Source: Tichowtungia aerotolerans
GTDB lineage: Bacteria > Verrucomicrobiota > Kiritimatiellia > Kiritimatiellales > Tichowtungiaceae
Assembly: GCF_009905215.1 (NCBI RefSeq)
Contig: NZ_CP047593.1
Location: 434,001 to 498,000, forward strand
Length of the DNA: 64,000 nt
Direction of reading: 5' to 3'
Notes under the pieces: model-generated
What the model saw: only the letters and a program-made list of their open reading frames with translations
What the model was told of the DNA's origin: nothing
Database searches by the model: none
Made by a program: the position numbers and the translations under genes
In this document: in pieces, positions 26,173-45,109 of the stretch
How positions within the stretch are numbered: the first letter of the stretch is position 1
Layout: the number at the start of each line of letters is the position of its first letter

Positions 26173-28377
<2,205 letters not shown>

Positions 28378-30273: not shown

Positions 30274-31941
30274 TCAAAGAATCGGCGCGGCAAGGCCGTT
30301 GATGACTTTGAGAATCCGGGTCTGGGTTTCGTTGGGCGCAGCCAGCGTTTCGTCTTCCGGGAAACTGCCGACATTCTGATAATGCGTATAGAAATCGGGG
30401 TGACCCGGCGACAGCGGCGCCATTCCCGCCAGCAGATCAAAACTGGCCGTGTTGCGAATCGGCCACAGGTCCGCCGGAATAGAAGCCGAAATCCTCTCGA
30501 AAAAGGAATTCACCTTGTCCAGGCTGAGCGGAATTTCCCGACGGGCGATCACCCAGCTGTTGCCCGCCCGCATGTCGTTCTCGATATTTTCCTGGACCAA
30601 CCCGGCGATTTTCGGGTCATAAATCAGCAGGCCGACCTCTGTGTTCAAATTGGCCGACCGCGGATCCAGATTAAAGGTCCCGATGTAAGCCACACGCCCA
30701 TCCATCACAAACGATTTTGCATGAATACAGAGGTATGGCTGTTTTTTCTTTTCTCCCGCGGCGGCTTTCTGCTCCGCCAGCGCCTTCATTTTTGGATAGG
30801 CAGGAAAAACGGTCAGTAAATTGCCAGGCAGCGGTCTGTATTCATAGATATGGAATCCGAGGTCTTCGATGTAGAGCGACCGCCATTTGTAATTCGCGGA
30901 GTAAGCCATAATATTGTCGGTTGCTCCAAAACTGTTCGACGAAACCTTCACCTTCAAATCCGGATTTTCCGCTTTTTTCCGCAGGAAAAAATCCCGCATC
31001 GGCTTGTCCAGCACCAGATAGGGACTCTGCAGCACCAGCTCATCGTTCCAGTTTTCCAGCTCCTTGCGCAGTCGGGCGGTAATAACGCCGTCTCCGTTCA
31101 GTCCCCATCGGGAATTTTTGCCCGGCTTATCGCAAATAAAATCCACTCGCTGCGCCGGAAGAAGGACATCCGCAAAGCGGTCCTGAATCTGCGCGGCATC
31201 GTCGGCCATCGGACTCAGCTCATCAAAAAAGCCGTGCAGCTCAAACTCATCCCATGTTTCGTAGCGGGTAAATCCGCCGGCTTCCAGCCGCTTGCGAACA
31301 TCGAGCAAATCATGTCCAGCAACCGCATAGTTATAGCCCCAGAACTGTTCAAACGATTTCTCGATATCGCGCACCACCGGACCGACCACCAGCACATCAC
31401 GGTCCTTGAAATTCATGCCGATCGAAAAATCATAATAGGTGTTTTCAATATTACGACCGCCCGTGATCGCAACTTTCCCGTCCACCGTAATAATCTTGTT
31501 ATGCATCCGCTGATTCGTATTCCGGAATGCAAACAGCACATCCATCAACCCGCGAAGTTTGGACGGGTTCAGCCGATCTCCCATCGGGCGATAATATTTC
31601 AGTTCCAGATTCGGATGCACATCCGCCAAAAATGCCGCCAGATCCCGATCCTTGTCCGACGCGATATGATCCGTAATCATTCGGACCTTCACACCGCGCT
31701 TCGCCGCCTGAATCAGCTCATACATAAACAGGCGCCCGCACTCGTCATTGGTCAGAATGAACGTCTGGACATCAATCGACTTCTTTGCATTACGGAACAG
31801 GTGCACCCGAAGCAGCATCGCATCGTATCCGCTGTTTACAATCGCCACCCGATTCGTTCCGTCCTGCGGCCCGAACAGCGGCGATTCCGCCGCCGCTCCG
31901 ATCGCTGCCGCCAGAAACACCAAACACAAAAACCGTTTCAT
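30274..31941 (-). CDS. secreted phospholipase D-like protein
   Basis: 555 residues. Signal peptide MKRFLCLVFLAAAIGAAAES. Two HKD half-sites: HNKIITVDGKVAITGGRN near residue 165 and HAKSFVMDGRVAYIGTFNLD near 425. Both histidines and lysines are intact, so the enzyme should be active, probably on phospholipids in the periplasm. The layout resembles cardiolipin synthase C (ClsC/YmdC) more than nucleases such as Nuc. ATG 31941 is chosen because it begins the signal peptide and has AGGAGACAGGAA upstream; the frame is open 21 codons further. Divergent from the E1-KAS III fusion gene, with a palindrome between. Confidence 0.88.
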   Translation of the reverse strand: MKRFLCLVFLAAAIGAAAESPLFGPQDGTNRVAIVNSGYDAMLLRVHLFRNAKKSIDVQTFILTNDECGRLFMYELIQAAKRGVKVRMITDHIASDKDRDLAAFLADVHPNLELKYYRPMGDRLNPSKLRGLMDVLFAFRNTNQRMHNKIITVDGKVAITGGRNIENTYYDFSIGMNFKDRDVLVVGPVVRDIEKSFEQFWGYNYAVAGHDLLDVRKRLEAGGFTRYETWDEFELHGFFDELSPMADDAAQIQDRFADVLLPAQRVDFICDKPGKNSRWGLNGDGVITARLRKELENWNDELVLQSPYLVLDKPMRDFFLRKKAENPDLKVKVSSNSFGATDNIMAYSANYKWRSLYIEDLGFHIYEYRPLPGNLLTVFPAYPKMKALAEQKAAAGEKKKQPYLCIHAKSFVMDGRVAYIGTFNLDPRSANLNTEVGLLIYDPKIAGLVQENIENDMRAGNSWVIARREIPLSLDKVNSFFERISASIPADLWPIRNTASFDLLAGMAPLSPGHPDFYTHYQNVGSFPEDETLAAPNETQTRILKVINGLAAPIL

Positions 31942-31966
31942 TTCCTGTCTCCTGCCGAAAACCCGA

Positions 31967-32013
31967 ATTTCCAACCCCTGAAAAAACCTTCCCAGATTTT
32001 CCAAACATTGGAA
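31967..32013. repeat. TTCCAA palindrome (core ACA) with degenerate partner
   Basis: Perfect copy at 31999-32013 and an eroded one (TTTCCAACCCCTGAAAA) at about 31967. Both lie in the 135-bp divergent region between the phospholipase D-like gene and the E1-lipoyl-KAS III gene, where promoters of both must be. Confidence 0.85.
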
Positions 32014-32076: not shown

Positions 32077-35000
32077 ATGCAAAAACAAGATACCGACCTT
32101 TTTCTCAGTATTTACAGAAATATGCTGGCATCGCGGAAAGCCGACGCTGTGCAGGAGGACGCCGCCCAGCGCGGAGAAGCCTTTTTCTACATTCCTTCGT
32201 CCGGTCACGAGGCAATGGCCGCACTGGCTCCGCACCTGACGGAAGCGGACTGGCTGCACTGCCACTACCGCGACCGCGCACTGATGCTCGCCCGCGGCGT
32301 CACGCTGACCGATGTTCTCCTTGACCTGCTCGGGAAATCCGGGTCGCCGTCGGAAGGCCGCCGCATGCCCGCGTTTGCCAACAGCCATGCGCTGCGTCTG
32401 CTGAGTGCACCAACCTGCGTGGCCAATAACGCCCTGCAGGCTGTCGGCGTCGCCCAGGCCGTTAAAGCAAAAGGCGAAATCGTCTACTGCGGAATCGGCG
32501 ACGGAGGAACTCAGGAAGGCGAATATCTCGAAGCAATCGCAGAAGCTGTCCGTTCCGAACTGCCCGTTCTGTTTGTGGTGCAGAACAACAAATACGCACT
32601 CTCCACTCTGTCCAAGGGCCGCACCTTCTTCTCGCGTCCCGATGGAGATGCGGATGAATTTTACGGAATTCCAATTCTGCGCTGCGACGGCACCAATGCC
32701 GTCGAAACCCATGCGGTTTTCGGGGAAGCGGTTTCCAAGGTTCGGAAAAACCAGCCCCAGATTGTTGTGATGGACGTTGAGCGGCTGATGAGCCACACCA
32801 ACGCCGACGACCACTCGCTCTACCGCTCGGCCGAAGATATCCGCGAGATGCTCGAAAACTCCGATCCGATCCTGATTCTGGCGGAAAAGCTGATCGAAGC
32901 CGGCATTCCGGAAGATGAGCTGAAAAAGATCGAACACGAGATCAACCACGAACTCGACGAAGCCTTTACCGCCGCGCGCAAAGCGCCGATCTGCCAAACC
33001 GAGCTGCATGCCAAAAAGCCGATTGTCTCAGGAAAAGAGGAACAGCGTGCTGACGGCGACGCCCTGACGATGATTGAGGCAATGCGCTCGGTAATCCGCG
33101 CCCGCCTCGACAGCGATCCGGATGCTTATTTTTATGGCGAAGATATTGAAGACCCCAAAGGTGATGTGTTCGGCCTCACCCGCGGCGTCGGCAAGGATTT
33201 CCCGAAGCAGGTGGTCAATTCGCCGCTGAGTGAAGCGACGATTGTCGGCGCGGCTATCGGCCAGTCGCTGACGGGCAAAAAGCCGGTCGCCTGCATTCAG
33301 TTTGTCGACTTTATGCTGCCGGCCTTCAACCAGATAGCCGCCGAGCTCGGCGCGATGTGGTGGCGCACCAACGGACAGTGGGAATGCCCGGTTACGGTGA
33401 TGGCCATTTGCGGCGGCTACCGCCCCGGCCTCGGACCGTACCATGCGCAGACCTTTGATGCCACCTTCGCGCATATTCCCGGCCTCGACGTACTGATGCC
33501 GTCGACTGCCGCCGATGCCGCCGGCCTGCTCAACGCTTCGTTCGAGTCAGGTCGTCCGACGATTTTTCTCTTCCCGAAAAACCTGATCAATGACCGCTCG
33601 GTCTGCTGTGCAGACAACGCTGCCGAACAGTTTGTACCGATCGGAAAAGCGCGCGTGACGCGCCCTGGCAAAGACCTGACTATTGTCAGCTGGGGCTCCA
33701 CCATGCCGCTGTGCGAAAAAACCGCCGATGCACTCGAAGAAGCCGGTGCTTTTGCGGAGCTGATCGACCTGCGTTCCCTCTCTCCGTGGGATCAGGAAAC
33801 CGTCCTCTCTTCCGCACAAAAAACCGGCAAACTGCTGGTCGTCCACGAAGACAATCACACCTGCGGACTCGGCGGCGAAATCCTCGCCACCGTGGCCGAA
33901 AAAACCGACGGCATCAAAATGGCGCGCGTTGCGCGGGCCGACACCTACATCCCCTACCACTTTGAAAGCCAGATCGACGTCCTGCCCTCATTCAAAAGCG
34001 TGCTCACCCAAGCCGCCGAACTGACCGGCTATTCACTTGAATGGCAGAAGCCGGTCGAGGAAGCCGAGGGCATGGTCACAGTCAATGCAATCGGATCCAG
34101 CCCGTCTGATAAAACAGTGACGATCACAGAACTGCAGGTGGAAGCCGGACAAGCCGTACAGGCCGGCGACATTCTCGCTTCGGTGGAAGCCGACAAAGCC
34201 ACGATGGAAATTTCCACACCGGTTGACGGCATCGTCGAAGAACTGCTTCTGGAAGAAGGCGATTCCGTTGATGTCGGCACACCGCTGGCGCGCATCAAAA
34301 CAGAAGAAACCGACCTGATCAAAAAGCCGGTTACATCGGAAAACCCCGGCACCCCGATTCTGGAAAAACTGTTTTCTGCAGACATTCCAAGCATTGAAAA
34401 AACCGTTTCCGAAGTTCGGAAACCGATTCTTCTTTCGTCGATTTCCACGGTGCTTGGTGCACGTAAGATTGTGAACGAGGATCTGGTGAACCCGAATGAC
34501 GAATGGGATTCGGCCGCCATCCAGAAACGAACCGGGATCGAAACGCGCTACTGGATCGATGGAACCCAGGATGTCACATCCATGGCCGTACAGGCCGTGC
34601 GTGACCTGCTGGCCAAGGAACGGCTGGAACCGTCCGATATTGACGCGTTGGTTTGCTCAACCGGAACGCCGACGGCCATGACTCCGTCGCTCGCCTGCCG
34701 CGTTCTGCGCGCACTCTCGCCCGAAAAAGGCGAACTCTTGATGCAGGCGCACGACGTAAACGCCGCCTGTTCCGGATATATGTACGCCCTGCAGAATGCA
34801 GTCGACATCCTGCGCGATGATCCATCGAAAAAAGTTATCGTCATCACCGCCGAGACGCTGTCGCCAATGATCAACCACGACGACCCGAAAACCAGCGTTC
34901 TTTTCGGCGACGCGGCAACCGCATCCCTGCTCTCCTGCGAACCGCGGCAAGGAAACATTAACGCGCTCGTTAACCGTCCGGTTCTTTCCGCAAAAGGCGT

Positions 35001-35385
35001 CGCTGACAAAGTGCTCTACGTACCCAATATGGGAAGCGAAGAAAAAATTGCGATGGAAGGCCTCACGGTCTTCAAGGTCGCGGTGAAGAAGATGATCGAT
35101 ATGCTGTCCAAAGCATGCGCCGACCGCGGCATTGCTGTGGACGAACTCGACCAGATCGTTCCACATCAGGCCAACGAACGGATTATCGAAGCCATCCGCA
35201 AAACGATCAAATATCCGCCGGAGAAAATGTTCAACCACATCTGCAAATACGCAAACACATCGTCGAACACAATTCCGTTTGCTCTGACCGAACTGATGCC
35301 GCAGCTCGAAAAAGACGCGCGAGTCGGCCTGACCGCCTTTGGCGGCGGCTTTACCTTCGGTGCCGCAGTAATTGAAAAGCAGTAG
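32077..35385 (+). CDS. E1-alpha/E1-beta/lipoyl/ketoacyl-ACP synthase III fusion
   Basis: 1102 residues in one frame. (1) Residues ~1-325: 2-oxoacid dehydrogenase E1-alpha, with the thiamine-diphosphate motif GIGDGGTQEGEYLEA (G141-D142-G143) ending in NN at 170-171. (2) ~329-660: E1-beta (EAMRSVIRARLDSDPDAYFY, HEDNHTCGLGGEI). (3) ~666-742: lipoyl domain with acceptor lysine K707 in EADKATMEI. (4) A ~40-residue linker. (5) 784-1102: full-length KAS III with active triad C898 (NAACSGY), H1030 (PHQAN) and N1060 (YANTSSN); the 132 and 30 residue spacings equal those of E. coli FabH. There is no E2 acyltransferase or E3 domain. The design suggests decarboxylation of a 2-oxo acid, acyl transfer to lipoyl, then to the KAS cysteine for condensation with malonyl-ACP. 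ATG 32077 has only a weak ribosome site. The frame is open far upstream but antisense to another gene. Confidence 0.92.
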   Translation: MQKQDTDLFLSIYRNMLASRKADAVQEDAAQRGEAFFYIPSSGHEAMAALAPHLTEADWLHCHYRDRALMLARGVTLTDVLLDLLGKSGSPSEGRRMPAFANSHALRLLSAPTCVANNALQAVGVAQAVKAKGEIVYCGIGDGGTQEGEYLEAIAEAVRSELPVLFVVQNNKYALSTLSKGRTFFSRPDGDADEFYGIPILRCDGTNAVETHAVFGEAVSKVRKNQPQIVVMDVERLMSHTNADDHSLYRSAEDIREMLENSDPILILAEKLIEAGIPEDELKKIEHEINHELDEAFTAARKAPICQTELHAKKPIVSGKEEQRADGDALTMIEAMRSVIRARLDSDPDAYFYGEDIEDPKGDVFGLTRGVGKDFPKQVVNSPLSEATIVGAAIGQSLTGKKPVACIQFVDFMLPAFNQIAAELGAMWWRTNGQWECPVTVMAICGGYRPGLGPYHAQTFDATFAHIPGLDVLMPSTAADAAGLLNASFESGRPTIFLFPKNLINDRSVCCADNAAEQFVPIGKARVTRPGKDLTIVSWGSTMPLCEKTADALEEAGAFAELIDLRSLSPWDQETVLSSAQKTGKLLVVHEDNHTCGLGGEILATVAEKTDGIKMARVARADTYIPYHFESQIDVLPSFKSVLTQAAELTGYSLEWQKPVEEAEGMVTVNAIGSSPSDKTVTITELQVEAGQAVQAGDILASVEADKATMEISTPVDGIVEELLLEEGDSVDVGTPLARIKTEETDLIKKPVTSENPGTPILEKLFSADIPSIEKTVSEVRKPILLSSISTVLGARKIVNEDLVNPNDEWDSAAIQKRTGIETRYWIDGTQDVTSMAVQAVRDLLAKERLEPSDIDALVCSTGTPTAMTPSLACRVLRALSPEKGELLMQAHDVNAACSGYMYALQNAVDILRDDPSKKVIVITAETLSPMINHDDPKTSVLFGDAATASLLSCEPRQGNINALVNRPVLSAKGVADKVLYVPNMGSEEKIAMEGLTVFKVAVKKMIDMLSKACADRGIAVDELDQIVPHQANERIIEAIRKTIKYPPEKMFNHICKYANTSSNTIPFALTELMPQLEKDARVGLTAFGGGFTFGAAVIEKQ

Positions 35386-35438: not shown

Positions 35439-36845
35439 CTAATCGAGAGCGATTTCCTGCTGGTATTCCGGGACTTCGCAGTTCCATCCGGTTTTTTCTG
35501 CAAGCAGTTTCCTGAAGGCTCCGGCGGCTTTCGGCTCGCCGTGTGTCACAAATACACGGCGCGGCGGCTTTTTCATGGAGGTGATCCAGCGCAGCAGCTC
35601 TTCCTGGTCGGCATGCGCGGAAAAGCCGTTTATTTTTTCGATGCGCGCCTTCACTTCGTGTTCTTCTCCGAAGATCCGGATGGGATCTGTCCCTTCAAGA
35701 ATCAAACGGCCCAGGGTTCCGACCGCCTGATACCCCACAAAAAGAATGGTGCTCTCGGGGCGCCCAATGTTGTTTTTGAGATGATGTTTGATGCGGCCAC
35801 CGGTGCACATGCCGGAACCGGCAATAATGATGGCGGTTCCGCTGATGTGATTGATGGCTTTCGACTGGTCCGTTGTGTTTGACAGAGTCAGCCCCGGAAG
35901 GTCGCATGGGTGCTGGCCTTTGCGAAGCAGCTCCAGCGCTTCGTCATCGAACAGTTCGGGATGCTTTTTAAACACTTCGGTCACTTTGATGGCCATCGGG
36001 CTGTCTACAAATGCCAGCAGGTGGGGAATCCGGTCTTCGCGAAGCAGCCCATTGAGGTGATAAAGGAGTTCCTGCGTACGCTCGACAGCAAAGCTGGGAA
36101 TAACAACATTGCCGCCGGCTTCGTTCGTTTCATTGATAATCCGCGCAAGCTCCTCCGGAATGTCTTTGGCATTGCCGTGGACCCGGTCCCCATAGGTTGA
36201 TTCGACCAGAATATAGTCCGCCTCTTCAAAAGAGCTAGGATCATTAATGATCGGAATATCCCAACGACCAACGTCTCCGGAGAACAGAATGCTCCGGGAC
36301 TCATCACCCTGCGTCACCGTCAACCGGATGCTGGTTGATCCGAAGATATGCCCGGCCTCGCGGAACTCAGCAGAAATCCCCTCCCCAACCGCAACCGGAG
36401 CGTCGTAAACCACCGGGCGCATCAACGGAATTGTCTGCTCGACATCCCCCTGCGTATAAAGCGGTTCATACGGAAACGGACTGGTTTTCCCCTGCCGCTC
36501 GTGACGCGCTTTTTTATGCTTCACATCTTCTTCCTGCAGGAACGCAGAATCTTTCATGATAATCTGAGCAATTTCGAGCGTTGCCGAGGTACAAAGAATT
36601 TTCCCCGAAAAGCCCTCCTTCACCAGTTTCGGCAGGCGGCCGCAATGGTCCAGGTGCGCATGCGTCAGCAAAACCGCATCAATGGTTTCCGGAGGCACCG
36701 GGAACGGATCCCAGTTGCGCGATTTCAGGTCGCGTTCCTGATAGAGTCCGCAATCAATTAAAATCCGGGTTCCTGCCGCTTCAATCAGATAGCAGGAGCC
36801 CGTCACATTCTGAGCCGCACCGAAAAAGTTCAGTTTCAAATTCAT
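35439..36845 (-). CDS. beta-CASP metallo-beta-lactamase-fold hydrolase (RNA-type)
   Basis: 468 residues. MBL motif LLTHAHLDHCGRLPKL (HxHxDH), further metal ligands in EAGHIFGSTSIR and SGDVGRWD. The beta-CASP insertion runs ~200-370 with PSFAVERTQELLYHLNGLL. The RMMBL C-terminal part has INGFSAHADQEELLRW and FVTHGEPKAA. Resembles CPSF-73/Ysh1-like bacterial and archaeal nucleases, so an RNA endo/exonuclease role is likely, though substrates are unknown. AAGGAGG precedes ATG 36845. Converges with the fusion gene; the 53 bp between them shows no clear terminator. Confidence 0.92.
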   Translation of the reverse strand: MNLKLNFFGAAQNVTGSCYLIEAAGTRILIDCGLYQERDLKSRNWDPFPVPPETIDAVLLTHAHLDHCGRLPKLVKEGFSGKILCTSATLEIAQIIMKDSAFLQEEDVKHKKARHERQGKTSPFPYEPLYTQGDVEQTIPLMRPVVYDAPVAVGEGISAEFREAGHIFGSTSIRLTVTQGDESRSILFSGDVGRWDIPIINDPSSFEEADYILVESTYGDRVHGNAKDIPEELARIINETNEAGGNVVIPSFAVERTQELLYHLNGLLREDRIPHLLAFVDSPMAIKVTEVFKKHPELFDDEALELLRKGQHPCDLPGLTLSNTTDQSKAINHISGTAIIIAGSGMCTGGRIKHHLKNNIGRPESTILFVGYQAVGTLGRLILEGTDPIRIFGEEHEVKARIEKINGFSAHADQEELLRWITSMKKPPRRVFVTHGEPKAAGAFRKLLAEKTGWNCEVPEYQQEIALD

Positions 36846-39224: not shown

Positions 39225-41090
39225 TTACTTTTCAATAACCAAACGGATGAACTTTTGTCCATCAACCGTCAAAACCATATTGGTGACATAATCAAACGTA
39301 TTACCTGTCACATTGGTTCCTGTAACTAAATAACCGTTGTTGGTCCATGCTCCGGAAACAAGATCATCACAGGTTTCGAGATAGTAAGACAGAGAACTGT
39401 CATCTGAGCGCTGCACATGAACAAAGGTCATCGTGCCGTCATCATTGACAAAAGTTGCTTGCTGCCCCATGTCCGTTTCGTCGATCGGATTGCCGCCCAG
39501 ACCATATTCGTACAGATTATTAAGAGCATCTCCATCCGGGTTATCGGTCAAGCCATCGTTGACGCCTGCGGTCAATCCTGCATTTTCCACCCACAGATCG
39601 TATCCTTCTGTTGCACCGATGATCAGCGTGCCGCCTTCATTCAGCAGACGAGCGCTGTAGGTGGTAAAAATGTCATCGCCGGGAGCATAGACTCCCGAAT
39701 CAATGAAATTCCCTTCGATAGTCAGGCCTGCCAGCGTAACAGAATTACTCCCCACCACAAACTTTCCGGAGCTTGTCGCACCGGTCACATCAATAGTCAA
39801 ATCAGAGTAGTCGGCGGTTCCATCAAGCGTCAGTTTCCCTGAGTCCACTTCAATCGTGTTTCCATTGACAGTACACGACGTGGCGTTCAGGGTCAGATTG
39901 CCGGAGCCCTGTTTTTGGATCTTGCTGGAGGCCGGCAGGATTAAAGACTGCATATTAAAGGTCACTGTATCATCTGCGTGGTCGATCATGAAGCGAAAGT
40001 CATCGCCTCCCACCATAGCAGAACCGTCTACAGAAAAACTCACCGTCATTTCTCCAGTTTCGACATAACGCCATAACACATTGGATCCGACCAGCTGGAG
40101 ATCTCCGAGCAAGCTGACTCCCGGCGACCTCATACGCAAGGTCGAAGCATCCCCGGCGATCAGTGTTTTAGCGATCATATCCCCGCCCAACGCAGAGATA
40201 CTGTTACCGGTAAAATCGAAATCATCGACAGAATTCGGAAGAGTGTCCGGATTCCAGTTGGCAGCCGTCCCCCACCGGGAGCTGTCTGCGGCCCCTTCGT
40301 CCCAGGTAACTGTAGACGAAGGCACCGCACCTACATTCAGCGTGCCGCCGTCATTCACGAGACGAGCGCTGTAAGTGGTGAATATGTCGTCGCCGGGAGC
40401 ATAGACTCCCGGATCAATTTCAGTCCCCTCAATGATCAAGCCGGCCAATGTTATCGAATTTGTTCCCACAACAAACTTTCCGGAGCTCGTCGCACCGGTT
40501 ACGTCAATGGTCAAACCGGAATAGTCGGCAGCTCCATCCAGCATCAGTTGCCCGGAATCAACTTCAATCGTGTTTCCGTTGGCACTACACGATGCGGCAT
40601 TCAGGATCAGGTTGCCGGAACCCTGTTTCCTAACCTTGCTGGAAGCCTGCAGAATCAAGGTCTGAATATCGAAGGTGACCGTATCATCCGCGTGGTCGAT
40701 CATGAAACGGAAATCATCGCCTCCCACAGTGGCCGAACCATTCACTGCGAAACTCACCGTCTTTTCCCCGGTTTCAACATAACGCCAGAACACATTGCTT
40801 CCAACCAGCCGAAGGTCTCCATACAAACCGACACCGGCCGATCTCATACGCAGTGTAGAGGAATCCCCACCAATCAATGTCTTTGCGGTCATATCCCCGC
40901 CCAATGCGGAAATGCTGTTACCGGCAAAATCGAAATCATCACTTGAATTCGGGGTTGTATCCGGATTCCAGTTGGCAGCCGTCCCCCACCGGGAACCATC
41001 CGATGCGCCATCATCCCAAACAACGGTTTCGGCATGAGACGCCCAAGTTAAAGACAAAATCAGAACAAATATATAATCCTGTATTTTCAC
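39225..41090 (-). CDS. secreted two-repeat beta-rich protein
   Basis: 621 residues. Signal peptide 1-20 (KIQDYIFVLILSLTWASHAE). Residues ~25-262 and ~263-495 are two copies of one 238-residue unit, each starting WD(D/E)GA(S/A)D and containing RWGTAANWNPDT and DDFRFMIDHADDTVTF. Such glycine/serine-rich strands suggest an autotransporter-type beta-helix. After that comes a Ca-binding-like NPDGDALNNLYEYGLGGNP and a ~90-residue C-terminal domain ending FIRLVIE, of a type common in secreted proteins of Verrucomicrobia-like bacteria. No autotransporter barrel. Last gene of the polysaccharide operon; probably extracellular, with sugar-binding only a guess. Confidence 0.8.
   Translation of the reverse strand: MKIQDYIFVLILSLTWASHAETVVWDDGASDGSRWGTAANWNPDTTPNSSDDFDFAGNSISALGGDMTAKTLIGGDSSTLRMRSAGVGLYGDLRLVGSNVFWRYVETGEKTVSFAVNGSATVGGDDFRFMIDHADDTVTFDIQTLILQASSKVRKQGSGNLILNAASCSANGNTIEVDSGQLMLDGAADYSGLTIDVTGATSSGKFVVGTNSITLAGLIIEGTEIDPGVYAPGDDIFTTYSARLVNDGGTLNVGAVPSSTVTWDEGAADSSRWGTAANWNPDTLPNSVDDFDFTGNSISALGGDMIAKTLIAGDASTLRMRSPGVSLLGDLQLVGSNVLWRYVETGEMTVSFSVDGSAMVGGDDFRFMIDHADDTVTFNMQSLILPASSKIQKQGSGNLTLNATSCTVNGNTIEVDSGKLTLDGTADYSDLTIDVTGATSSGKFVVGSNSVTLAGLTIEGNFIDSGVYAPGDDIFTTYSARLLNEGGTLIIGATEGYDLWVENAGLTAGVNDGLTDNPDGDALNNLYEYGLGGNPIDETDMGQQATFVNDDGTMTFVHVQRSDDSSLSYYLETCDDLVSGAWTNNGYLVTGTNVTGNTFDYVTNMVLTVDGQKFIRLVIEK
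39591..41018 (-). repeat. 714-bp tandem duplication inside the repeat protein gene
   Basis: The two units are offset by exactly 714 bp (238 codons). For example GTCCCCCACCGGGA occurs at 40267 and again at 40981. Similarity is visible at the DNA level along the full unit, with scattered substitutions. Confidence 0.85.
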
Positions 41091-41243
41091 ACCTCTCTCC
41101 TTTTACTTGCTTATATTTTTAAACACTAACACCAGCAACGTTACACGCTCATTAAGGATGTTCTCTGAGCGGCAAATATAAGTGTAGGCGACTCATGAAA
41201 TGTTCCGATGAGAAAATATTTACCATGATTTTTCATGATCTTC

Positions 41244-42953
41244 TTATGGATGTATCGACTGGCTTTCTTTCACAAGAATCAGTCGATCGATTCTGAAATT
41301 ATATTCCCGGCAGGAGAGGCGCAGCGTATGGTGCCCCCCGGAAAGATCAAATTCCAACGGAGTACTGCCTCCCCAGTCCGTCAGTGTTTTCCACAGCATA
41401 ATTCCATCGGAAGAAACCGGAAGAGCACAGCTGATCCTCAAAGAACCGTCCATGGAAACATAGATCGAATCCATCGCACCGGTGGTTCCGCAACCGGATA
41501 CCCAGAGATTATAGACCCCGGTGGTTGGAACATAAAAATCATAGTCCGCAGTGCCTGTTCCGGAGGGATTGGTCTGGCTCAAATACTGCCCGCCGGATAC
41601 TCCCGGATCGTTCACAGCCACAAACGGATCAGTCAAAACGCCGGACTCTGCCTCCAGCTCAATGCGGTTTCGGGGAGTCAAAGAAGCCGGGTCGAGATCA
41701 CCCGGTTTCTGAATAAACACTTTATCGATCCGCGCCCCCTGCTCCCTGCGAGTTAGCCGCAAGGTATGAGAACCGGCAGACAGACTGTACTCCAACGGAT
41801 CAGAATCTCCGACTTCCCAAATCTTTTTCCAACTGAATGTTGTTCCCTGAGGCAACCCGCAATACCGGTGATTCTCTCCATCCATTGATACATAGATTGA
41901 ATCATCGTTGCCGGTTTCGCCATAGGCCAGCAGCCAGAGGTGTACAGTGGCGGCCTCATCCAGCTCAAACTCATACTCTGCAAAACCGGTTCCGTTCGTC
42001 ATTCCGTCCGGCTCTTCAATACACCATCCGAAACTCGCATCCGAATGAGCGATGCGCTGCAGGCCGCCGCTTAGTTCTCCGTTCTCGGCCTCAAACTCCA
42101 GCCGTCCGGCATCCGGATTTACTTCATCAAATGAAGTGCCCATGCGGTAGTCGTCGAAATACAGACCCTGATAAGGATGAAAAACTCCGCCCGGTCCAGC
42201 GTACAGGCCGCTGCGAATCGACATCGCCGGTCCGACCGGATCGTAATCCGGCCACACATGCCCCGGCATTTCTCCCCAGGGTCCAACGTACGTCCCGGCC
42301 AACACCCCATCCACCCAGATCCGGATTTCTCCATCCTGATTTATTTCGGTGTAACGCGGAGTAAACTGGAAAATAAAGGTATGCCACTGACCTTTGCTGA
42401 TCGTTTGCGAGGCAAAAACACTCTTTAATGTAAACGAACGGGCAGCGGCCTCCCATCGCCAATCGTCATACGCGTCAACAAAGGTCATTGTAAAAGGAAC
42501 TTTGGCAGCCACATTCGGCTGCCAGACCTGAGTGAAATGCTTTGCAAACACACCGGACTCCTCATCGATATACAGACGATAAGCCACATAACGGGTCTGG
42601 CCGAACTGCAAAGCCTCATCACCCGACCAGTTGGCAACTTCGATTTCAACACGATCCTTAAGACTATTACTGTTTACCATCGATTGAACCGCCAGGCAGC
42701 GGCTTCCGCTGTATGCCTTTTCTTCCGACAAATAAATATTACCGAACTCCCAGTCATCCGTCGGAATGCTGCTTGTAACATCATCTTCCGTGTAACGGTG
42801 ATACCAGCCGGCCTCTCCCCTTGCCACCCACTCATACTGAATATATGCCGGCTCCTCAAACTCTCGGCTCACATGATATTCCGGAACAGACTGCAACCCA
42901 AACAACAGTCCAAAAAATGGGCTCAATATTCCGGATAAAGACAGCACATTCAT
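41244..42953 (-). CDS. heparin-lyase-fold protein with two CBM6-like modules
   Basis: 569 residues. Possible signal/hydrophobic N-terminus (LSGILSPFFGLLFGL). Residues ~30-280 form a jelly-roll lyase-like domain with GQWHTFIFQFTPRYTEIN, GEIRIWVDGVLAGTYVGPWG and YFDDYRMG; the pattern is that of the Pfam Polysacc_lyase (PF14099) group. Then two ~140-residue CBM6-like modules start at ~283 (RLEFEAENGELSGG) and ~428 (RIELEAESGVLTD), each ending with the R-IDK/R-IDRL(I) motif. Polysaccharide cleavage or binding outside the cell is likely; catalytic residues cannot be assigned. Overlap-free, 11 bp after the esterase. Confidence 0.75.
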   Translation of the reverse strand: MNVLSLSGILSPFFGLLFGLQSVPEYHVSREFEEPAYIQYEWVARGEAGWYHRYTEDDVTSSIPTDDWEFGNIYLSEEKAYSGSRCLAVQSMVNSNSLKDRVEIEVANWSGDEALQFGQTRYVAYRLYIDEESGVFAKHFTQVWQPNVAAKVPFTMTFVDAYDDWRWEAAARSFTLKSVFASQTISKGQWHTFIFQFTPRYTEINQDGEIRIWVDGVLAGTYVGPWGEMPGHVWPDYDPVGPAMSIRSGLYAGPGGVFHPYQGLYFDDYRMGTSFDEVNPDAGRLEFEAENGELSGGLQRIAHSDASFGWCIEEPDGMTNGTGFAEYEFELDEAATVHLWLLAYGETGNDDSIYVSMDGENHRYCGLPQGTTFSWKKIWEVGDSDPLEYSLSAGSHTLRLTRREQGARIDKVFIQKPGDLDPASLTPRNRIELEAESGVLTDPFVAVNDPGVSGGQYLSQTNPSGTGTADYDFYVPTTGVYNLWVSGCGTTGAMDSIYVSMDGSLRISCALPVSSDGIMLWKTLTDWGGSTPLEFDLSGGHHTLRLSCREYNFRIDRLILVKESQSIHP

Positions 42954-42964
42954 TTTCTGATCAT

Positions 42965-45109
42965 TTACTTTCCGGCCTTAAAGACAAAATCGTCAAAGAC
43001 AAACAGATCGGGCTGAGCGGTCTTCGATCCGCAGTAAAGCCCGGCGCGAGCGCTGACAAAAACCGGTGCCGCTTCCACTTTCACTCTCGCAAGCATCACG
43101 TCATCATTTCCGGCATCACGAATCGTCACCGCATAAAACCCCTGCTTGGGAACCGACTGCAGTCGCAGGGAATAAACACCTCCAACCTCAAACTTTCTCG
43201 ATGCATTCGCAGAATCCACCACCAGCGGCTTCCCGCCATCAACCATCCGCAACAGCTGATAAGCGCCGGTATCGAACTTGATGCGTAAAACATAGAAGCT
43301 GTTCGCGTTCTGAACATTAAACGCCAACCCGCCCCAGGCATTGCGTCCGGCACTGCTGATCGATACACTCACATCAATCTTCATGTCTTCATCAGCTGTG
43401 GCATCGTTGTTGGCCAGCACATAATGACTTCCTGAAAAAGCTCCGGCCTGCACGTGACCGTCGACCGCCTGCCATCCGGCGGTGTGAAGATTTTCCCAAA
43501 CATTGGGAAGTTCGCCGCTAAAATCATCACGCACTTCTTTTTGAACCTGCTGAATTTGCGCCGCCGAAACATCCAGACCGGACTCAGAGAAGTCCGGAGG
43601 AGGAAAGTGATCGCTGCGGAACGGACACGCCGGAAGCCCGGCGCTGTTATACAGATTGCACAGCGGAAAATTGGCCCAGCCGTAACGCACAGCAACCGGG
43701 GCATCCACAGAATCGGCCCAAACCTCAACCGTATTGGTTCCGGTAATCCGCGCCTTTGCCGGCACAAACTTATGATCCTCTCCGCAAACCGTAAACCCGG
43801 CCAATGTATCGGCCTCAATCACAAAAGCCTCCGGGTCTGTTCCCGGCTCAATCCGTTTGTTTTTATTCATTGCCACACGGCGGGCTTCCAAACCGGAAGC
43901 AGCATATTTGAAGGTGACACGAATTTTACTGCCGACAACTTCTGCCGTATCAAACTCCGGACTATGTGCCTCAATGTCCGGCTGGTCGAGATTTGCGGCC
44001 AGCAAGGCCAACCGCTCGCCGACCGGCTGCTTGTTCTGCGGATGGATGTCGAGCTGCTCACCGGAATCGATGATCACTGCACGTGCGGTGTTCGGCAGAG
44101 CCAACGCAGCATCCTGCGCTTCGCGAAGAAAAGCCCATGCCTCCCTGCGAGCATCCCAGCCGACAACGTCATACGGAGCGAGCTGGACAAACAGAAATTG
44201 AAAATCGTACCCCCATAGATTTCTCCACACCGTGATTAAATCAGAAAACATCTCACCGTAGATATCGCTGTAACGGTCATCCGATTCTCCCTGATACCAA
44301 ATGCAGCCGCGAATCGCGAACGGGATAACCGGATGGATCGTTCCGTTGAACAGACGCGACGGAGCACGAATCAGTCCGGGATTCCTTGGACCGTCCGTCC
44401 ACCACGGATTGTCCGCGCCCAGAAACGGAGCATAGAGCTCCGGCTTGCTCTGCATGAACTCCATCGGAAGCCATTGATTGACCGCCGTTCCGCCGCGATT
44501 GGCATACAGCAGTCCGATCGGAATGCCGGCCATCGGCTGCAGTGCATTCCCAAAGAATGCACCTGTCGCGGAAAACTCGCGCGCCATCGCCGGCGTCATC
44601 TTCTGCCACGAATTCTGGAACGGCGCATCAATCACCACCTCTTTCGAGGGTTTTTCCGCGCCGATTCCTTCGCGCTGAAACTTAAACATGCGCACCTGAG
44701 AGTTATTCAGAACATCCGCTTTTGCCTCGCGCAGCGTTGGATAAAGTCGAATTTCTGTCGCCATATTGGATTGCCCGGCACACAGCCAGACATCTCCGAC
44801 GAGGACATCGACGATTGACGATTTATGATGTCCGATTGTCGACTGAACAGACAGTGAGCGGGGCTTACTGGAAGCCGGCATTGGATCAAGCGTCACTTTC
44901 CACTCGCCGTTTTCACCAGCCACTGCGGTTTTGACCTGCCCGGCAAACTCAACCGTAATATTCTCACCGGGATCTGCTGTTCCATAAACCGGCGTCGCAT
45001 GGTTGCGCTGCAGCACCATGTGATCCGTAAAAAGAGGATTCAGTTTTACCTCGGCAAACAGTGATGCCGCAAAACAGGAAACAACCCATATTAAAAAACG
45101 TTTAGTCAC
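42965..45109 (-). CDS. sialate-O-acetylesterase-type SGNH hydrolase
   Basis: 714 residues. Signal peptide ~1-20, N-terminal beta domain, then the SGNH nucleophile S114 in LCAGQSNM. Family blocks LLYANRGGTAVNQWLP, RGCIWYQGESD and QPVGERLALLA (catalytic His region) follow. The first ~545 residues are the usual length; residues ~545-714 are an extra C-terminal beta-sandwich (NVWENLHTAGWQAVDGHVQ, WGGLAFNVQNANSFYVLRI) that looks like a concanavalin/LamG-type sugar-binding domain. Removes acetyl esters from glycans. Start is GTG 45109 with AGGAG upstream. Part of the polysaccharide operon. Confidence 0.88.
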   Translation of the reverse strand: MTKRFLIWVVSCFAASLFAEVKLNPLFTDHMVLQRNHATPVYGTADPGENITVEFAGQVKTAVAGENGEWKVTLDPMPASSKPRSLSVQSTIGHHKSSIVDVLVGDVWLCAGQSNMATEIRLYPTLREAKADVLNNSQVRMFKFQREGIGAEKPSKEVVIDAPFQNSWQKMTPAMAREFSATGAFFGNALQPMAGIPIGLLYANRGGTAVNQWLPMEFMQSKPELYAPFLGADNPWWTDGPRNPGLIRAPSRLFNGTIHPVIPFAIRGCIWYQGESDDRYSDIYGEMFSDLITVWRNLWGYDFQFLFVQLAPYDVVGWDARREAWAFLREAQDAALALPNTARAVIIDSGEQLDIHPQNKQPVGERLALLAANLDQPDIEAHSPEFDTAEVVGSKIRVTFKYAASGLEARRVAMNKNKRIEPGTDPEAFVIEADTLAGFTVCGEDHKFVPAKARITGTNTVEVWADSVDAPVAVRYGWANFPLCNLYNSAGLPACPFRSDHFPPPDFSESGLDVSAAQIQQVQKEVRDDFSGELPNVWENLHTAGWQAVDGHVQAGAFSGSHYVLANNDATADEDMKIDVSVSISSAGRNAWGGLAFNVQNANSFYVLRIKFDTGAYQLLRMVDGGKPLVVDSANASRKFEVGGVYSLRLQSVPKQGFYAVTIRDAGNDDVMLARVKVEAAPVFVSARAGLYCGSKTAQPDLFVFDDFVFKAGK

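Follow-up and report, generated by a model that had tools for sequence, protein, structure and literature searches.

The 64-kb window analysed here, the whole stretch of DNA under study, comes from the genome of Tichowtungia aerotolerans, a single contig of 3,882,676 bases (strain S-5007 is described as having 3.88 Mb and 53.1% G+C; PMC10880615). It contains a gene of 1102 codons with a single terminal stop (Table 1). Translation and Pfam searches agree with what a sequence-only reading had proposed, namely one uninterrupted gene that joins both E1 halves of a 2-oxoacid dehydrogenase, a lipoyl domain and a ketoacyl-ACP synthase III (KAS III). The fusion is a single-gene unit, situated between a divergent PLD-family gene and a convergent metallo-β-lactamase/β-CASP RNase gene, and a comparison of the neighbours of fusion copies found no conserved operon partner. 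Upstream, the open frame extends to an ATG at 30850. A 1511-aa gene starting there was rejected because its upstream part overlaps the PLD-family gene on the opposite strand; hence 32077 is the better start and the extension is probably non-coding. The relatives of the fusion also align from the same methionine as the 32077 start. An erroneous frame, an overlooked stop or a false join in the assembly was rejected, because the full-length frame is unbroken in the 77 further complete copies among the best 80 matches; shortened copies sit at contig ends. In eight planctomycete contigs the fusion adjoins a two-repeat gene that resembles, by eye only, a bacterial microcompartment shell protein.

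Table 1. Features of the fusion locus (coordinates are positions in the window; residues are those of the 1102-aa protein)
Feature	Coordinates	Strand	Evidence or key residues
Fusion gene, E1-alpha / E1-beta / lipoyl / KAS III, 1102 aa	32077..35385	+	open frame; Pfam
E1-alpha (PF00676), residues 14-306	32116..32994	+	TPP motif GDG...NN 141-171; His240; Asp244-Asp245 loop
E1-beta (PF02779 + PF02780), residues 329-630	33061..33966	+	Glu386, His456
Lipoyl domain (PF00364), residues 680-740	34114..34296	+	lipoyl-lysine K707 in EADKA
Disordered linker at lipoyl/KAS boundary, residues 768-779	34378..34413	+	AlphaFold2 pLDDT <50
KAS III domain, residues 779-1102	34411..35382	+	Cys898, His1030, Asn1060
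PLD-family gene, divergent, upstream of fusion	30274..32004	-	Pfam; overlaps the upstream extension of the frame
Metallo-β-lactamase/β-CASP RNase gene, convergent, downstream of fusion	35439..36845	-	Pfam

The order of Pfam domains is that of the earlier reading, and every match is far over its cut-off: E1_dh (residues 14-306), Transket_pyr (329-504), Transketolase_C (523-630), Biotin_lipoyl (680-740), ACP_syn_III (893-956) and ACP_syn_III_C (1015-1100). An AlphaFold2 model of the single chain, built on an alignment of 72 sequences, has a mean pLDDT of 90.4 and a pTM of 0.70, with values below 50 confined to the linker between the lipoyl and KAS modules; Foldseek searches with this model recovered BCKDH/PDH E1-beta and FabH chains at target TM-scores of about 0.9. 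Residue conservation was counted over 78 complete copies, i.e. the host protein and the 77 others. The E1-alpha residues Asn171, His240 (aligned with His291 of human BCKDH), Asp244 and Asp245, the E1-beta residues Glu386 and His456, the lipoyl Lys707 and the KAS residues Cys898 and His1030 are present in all 78, and Asn1060 in 77, the remaining copy being gapped at this position. Lys707 and the Cys-His-Asn triad are likewise invariant in a fusion set from another collection (34/34). The catalytic residues named in the sequence-only reading are conserved across the copies compared, whereas its statement that the triad spacing is identical to that of FabH holds only in part: the spacing is FabH-like, but a 4-residue insertion precedes the RTG motif. 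The KAS III domain scores 263.7 on NCBIfam PRK09352 (cut-off 249) and 222.6 on TIGR00747 fabH (cut-off 292.1). In a PDB sequence search the best match of both E1 parts was the branched-chain enzyme of Thermus thermophilus (1um9). Against curated models the pyruvate dehydrogenase models score close and none of the models reaches its cut-off, so that the E1 portion alone cannot tell the substrate.

The E2 acyltransferase core (PF00198) is absent from the fusion protein and from the window, and E3 (PF02852) is absent from the window, in agreement with the earlier reading; matches to both models lie elsewhere in the genome, so that a lack of E2 and E3 in the whole organism was rejected. The E2 core is found only at 2.70 Mb, in a cluster that encodes E1-alpha/beta, E2 and a lipoyl-E3 fusion, and at about 2.88 Mb, in an AceE + E2 pair (about 2.87-2.88 Mb). 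Both E2s score best as pyruvate-type, under the curated cut-offs, and each sits with its own E1. E3-like domains occur at three places in the genome; the lipoyl domain fused to dihydrolipoyl dehydrogenase in the 2.70-Mb cluster is a candidate E3 for the fusion. The genome further encodes an LplA/LipB-family protein besides a biotin-ligase-like protein, a second 2-oxoacid:ferredoxin-type protein, and an ordinary FabH in a plsX-fabH-fabD operon, on account of which the fusion was rejected as the sole FabH of the cell. Given the other E1, the FabH, the E3 and the LplA/LipB-type gene, this organism has another E1 and another KAS III besides those of the fusion, to which both E3 and lipoylation are available. 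The description of the fusion as self-contained was consequently too strong, as it still requires a ligase for attachment of the lipoyl group and, for reoxidation of that group, an E3 encoded elsewhere.

A search for the same domain order in related genomes, proposed in the earlier reading, yielded at least 77 further complete copies in several phyla. Within its phylum the fusion occurs in about 36 of 388 genomes, at 43-80% identity and free of internal stops; counts were 33/143 for genomes of the host class, 41/43 for genomes of the host order, and 22/22 for order genomes that are at least 90% complete. The last set includes three genomes of 8.7, 7.4 and 4.4 Mb that are putatively those of the cultured Pontiella species. 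All of the best 80 matches among named genome contigs are members of the fusion family, their carriers being Kiritimatiellota, Planctomycetota (many of them Pirellulaceae), Spirochaetota, Lentisphaerota and Sumerlaeota, and Pfam returned the same domain order for proteins from planctomycetes, spirochaetes and Sumerlaeota. As most of these carriers are metagenome-assembled genomes (MAGs), lone odd assignments (Xenococcus, a β-proteobacterium) may be binning errors. Among 77 genomes of the class searched with FabH, carriers have a FabH in addition to the fusion; almost every non-carrier has a single FabH. A scan of a viral collection found no fusion. Far from being a rarity, the fusion represents a widespread family, and its members cluster with one another.

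A phylogeny of the E1 part places the KAS fusions in one group and the E2-core fusions, together with a Streptomyces E1, in the neighbouring group; long outgroup branches limit the rooting. These E2-core fusions are proteins of about 1000-1070 aa from other Verrucomicrobiota, which share the order of the KAS fusions through the lipoyl domain (34-41% identity) but end in an E2 core (PF00198, DHR..NG) rather than in KAS III. At eight Verrucomicrobiota loci that encode such single-chain proteins, DHR..NG replaces the usual DHR..DG. None of the 388 genomes of the phylum carries both fusion types. As the nearest sampled E1 relatives are E1-lipoyl-E2-core fusions, KAS III stands at the place of the E2 core behind the lipoyl arm, and it seems to have taken over that position in the chain. 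The fusion KAS domains for their part group apart from the stand-alone FabHs. In comparison with the branched-chain 2-oxo acid dehydrogenase typified by 1um9, the fusion has the same E1-alpha, E1-beta and lipoyl domains with all catalytic residues, but it is one chain that ends in KAS III, without the E2 acyltransferase core, a recognised subunit-binding domain or a nearby E3.

The Streptomyces relative is encoded on plasmid NZ_CP109590 of Streptomyces sp. NBC_01361, where an E1-alpha/beta gene lies beside a megasynthase annotated as NRPS. The megasynthase starts with a lipoyl domain, an E2 core (DHTVLNG), an ACP and a ketosynthase, and is likely to have a 2-oxoacid-fed polyketide starter; the neighbours on other Streptomyces plasmids are similar. 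Both systems link a 2-oxoacid E1 and a lipoyl arm to chain synthesis on a carrier protein, but in Streptomyces two genes are involved, and an E2 core and an ACP intervene between the lipoyl domain and the type I ketosynthase. This suggests that this branch of E1 enzymes has become coupled to synthesis on carrier proteins on more than one occasion.

In FabH, Thr28 contacts the adenine of CoA, which stacks between Trp32 and Arg151, while the pantetheine is held by Arg36 and the Asn247 region (PMC4606726). Thr28, Trp32, Arg36 and Arg151 are each conserved in 30/30 stand-alone FabHs of the host class. In the fusions, which share with FabH the fold, the Cys-His-Asn triad, Arg249 and the GGG motif, and which are attached to their own acyl donor, the adenine contacts Thr28, Trp32 and Arg151 are each found in none of the 78 copies, whereas Arg36 is kept in 72 and Asn247 and Arg249 in all. 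The Arg151 position lies beside the FGD motif and its alignment is unambiguous. Trp32 is not simply deleted: in about 44 of the 78 fusions the 4-residue insertion shifts a Trp, which weakens the loss of Trp32 as a proof on its own against CoA use, so that Arg151 and Thr28 carry most of the argument. With the shifted Trp some CoA binding could remain through a different geometry. Loss of the adenine grip with retention of the pantetheine/ACP grip is the pattern that an enzyme fed by a lipoyl arm and using malonyl-ACP should display.

These contacts bear directly on a CoA-dependent alternative, under which a different E2 of the cell would transfer the K707-bound acyl group to CoA, the fused KAS III would use isobutyryl-CoA, and the fusion would merely keep the partners together. 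The host does have two E2 proteins, and the fusion retains the pantetheine contacts along with some of the CoA pocket, but the complete divide between fusions and stand-alone FabHs in the adenine contacts, the pyruvate-type scores of both E2s beside their own E1s, and the position of KAS III in place of the E2 core make this account unlikely. KAS III proteins serving as acyltransferases are known, and the Streptomyces relative carries lipoyl, E2 and ACP domains on one chain; the fused KAS III might hand the acyl group of the lipoyl arm on to ACP or some other acceptor and catalyse no condensation. The condensing-type triad is intact, however, with no substitution in 78 copies, and we regard such an activity as improbable.

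Even-numbered iso chains start from isobutyryl, i.e. from 2-oxoisovalerate. The major fatty acids reported for T. aerotolerans are C18:0, i-C12:0, i-C18:0 and i-C16:0; Pontiella species have C18:0 with i-C12:0 and i-C14:0 or i-C18:0, and Kiritimatiella glycovorans has i-C14:0 and C18:0 (PMC10880615, PMC7356697). The even-iso pattern is seen in all four cultured strains matched, putatively, to fusion carriers (T. aerotolerans and the three Pontiella species), and the host and Pontiella lipids point to isobutyryl priming, which fits 2-oxoisovalerate. From these lipids the substrate in Kiritimatiellota is most likely 2-oxoisovalerate. The Pirellulaceae MAGs also carry the fusion and cultured Pirellulaceae are not known to be iso-rich, so the substrate or product may differ there. 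The Phe87-to-Thr change was dropped as a proof of branched-chain use because S. aureus FabH keeps Phe at this position. A reading in which the same direct transfer feeds a special lipid or a secondary metabolite from a different 2-oxo acid, with the fusions of planctomycetes and spirochaetes as the likeliest cases and the iso lipids of Kiritimatiellota made by other enzymes, is very improbable: the spread of the fusion over phyla with different membrane lipids and the second 2-oxoacid:ferredoxin-type protein of the host speak for it, but the even-iso lipids of all four strains speak against it, as do the stand-alone FabHs of the class, which keep Phe87 like E. coli FabH, a residue also present in S. 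aureus FabH.

Taken together, these observations make it fairly probable that the fusion is a 2-oxoacid-primed KAS III, in which direct, CoA-free transfer from the lipoyl arm to the KAS module starts iso fatty acids. With the help of thiamine diphosphate, the E1 halves would decarboxylate a 2-oxo acid, which in Kiritimatiellota is most likely 2-oxoisovalerate, and would load the acyl group onto the lipoyl group of K707 by reductive acylation. Still tethered, the acyl-dihydrolipoyl arm would next swing to KAS III and pass the acyl group directly to Cys898, with neither CoA nor an E2 core. Condensation with malonyl-ACP on KAS III would yield a branched 3-oxoacyl-ACP, the start of iso fatty acids. 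A shared E3 encoded elsewhere in the genome would reoxidise the lipoyl group, and the ordinary FabH would start straight chains. Decarboxylation, reductive acylation and condensation are predicted from intact conserved sites. Direct delivery, already put forward in the sequence-only reading, gains new support from the adenine contacts lost in all 78 copies, the replacement of the E2 core and the even-iso lipids, while the transfer itself we infer from the absence of an E2 core, from the joining of the domains in one chain and from the lost contacts; reoxidation by a shared E3, and which E3 acts, are likewise surmised.

A Bkd system is needed for iso fatty acids in Photorhabdus, but BkdABC is encoded by separate genes and is described as making acyl-CoA (PMC8248439, PMC3838401). 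Each part of the fusion is already known; the combination appears to be undescribed in the searched literature, full-text searches, with subscription papers mostly outside their reach, having found no description. Neither this combination nor an E2-free and probably CoA-free hand-over is known to us. In the textbook view, type II fatty acid synthesis of bacteria begins with acyl-CoA and FabH; the fusion family suggests a second entry, with a keto acid dehydrogenase and a starter ketosynthase as one polypeptide. We consider it moderately probable that a CoA-independent start of fatty acids, with a KAS III that has replaced the E2 core and abandoned CoA binding, constitutes a widespread class in Kiritimatiellota, Planctomycetota and Spirochaetota. 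A single gene would then account for the even-numbered iso fatty acids of cultured Kiritimatiellota and could serve as a genome marker for this trait, and lipid engineering would gain a natural starter module that works without CoA.

Elsewhere in the window, a catalase-peroxidase-like gene with the peroxidase domain twice (26179-28377, + strand) fits an aerotolerant host in a mostly anaerobic group. Three consecutive genes at 39225-45109 (- strand) encode large surface-type, polysaccharide-lyase-like and sialate-esterase-like proteins and adjoin an MFS sugar transporter, which together probably form a polysaccharide use locus.
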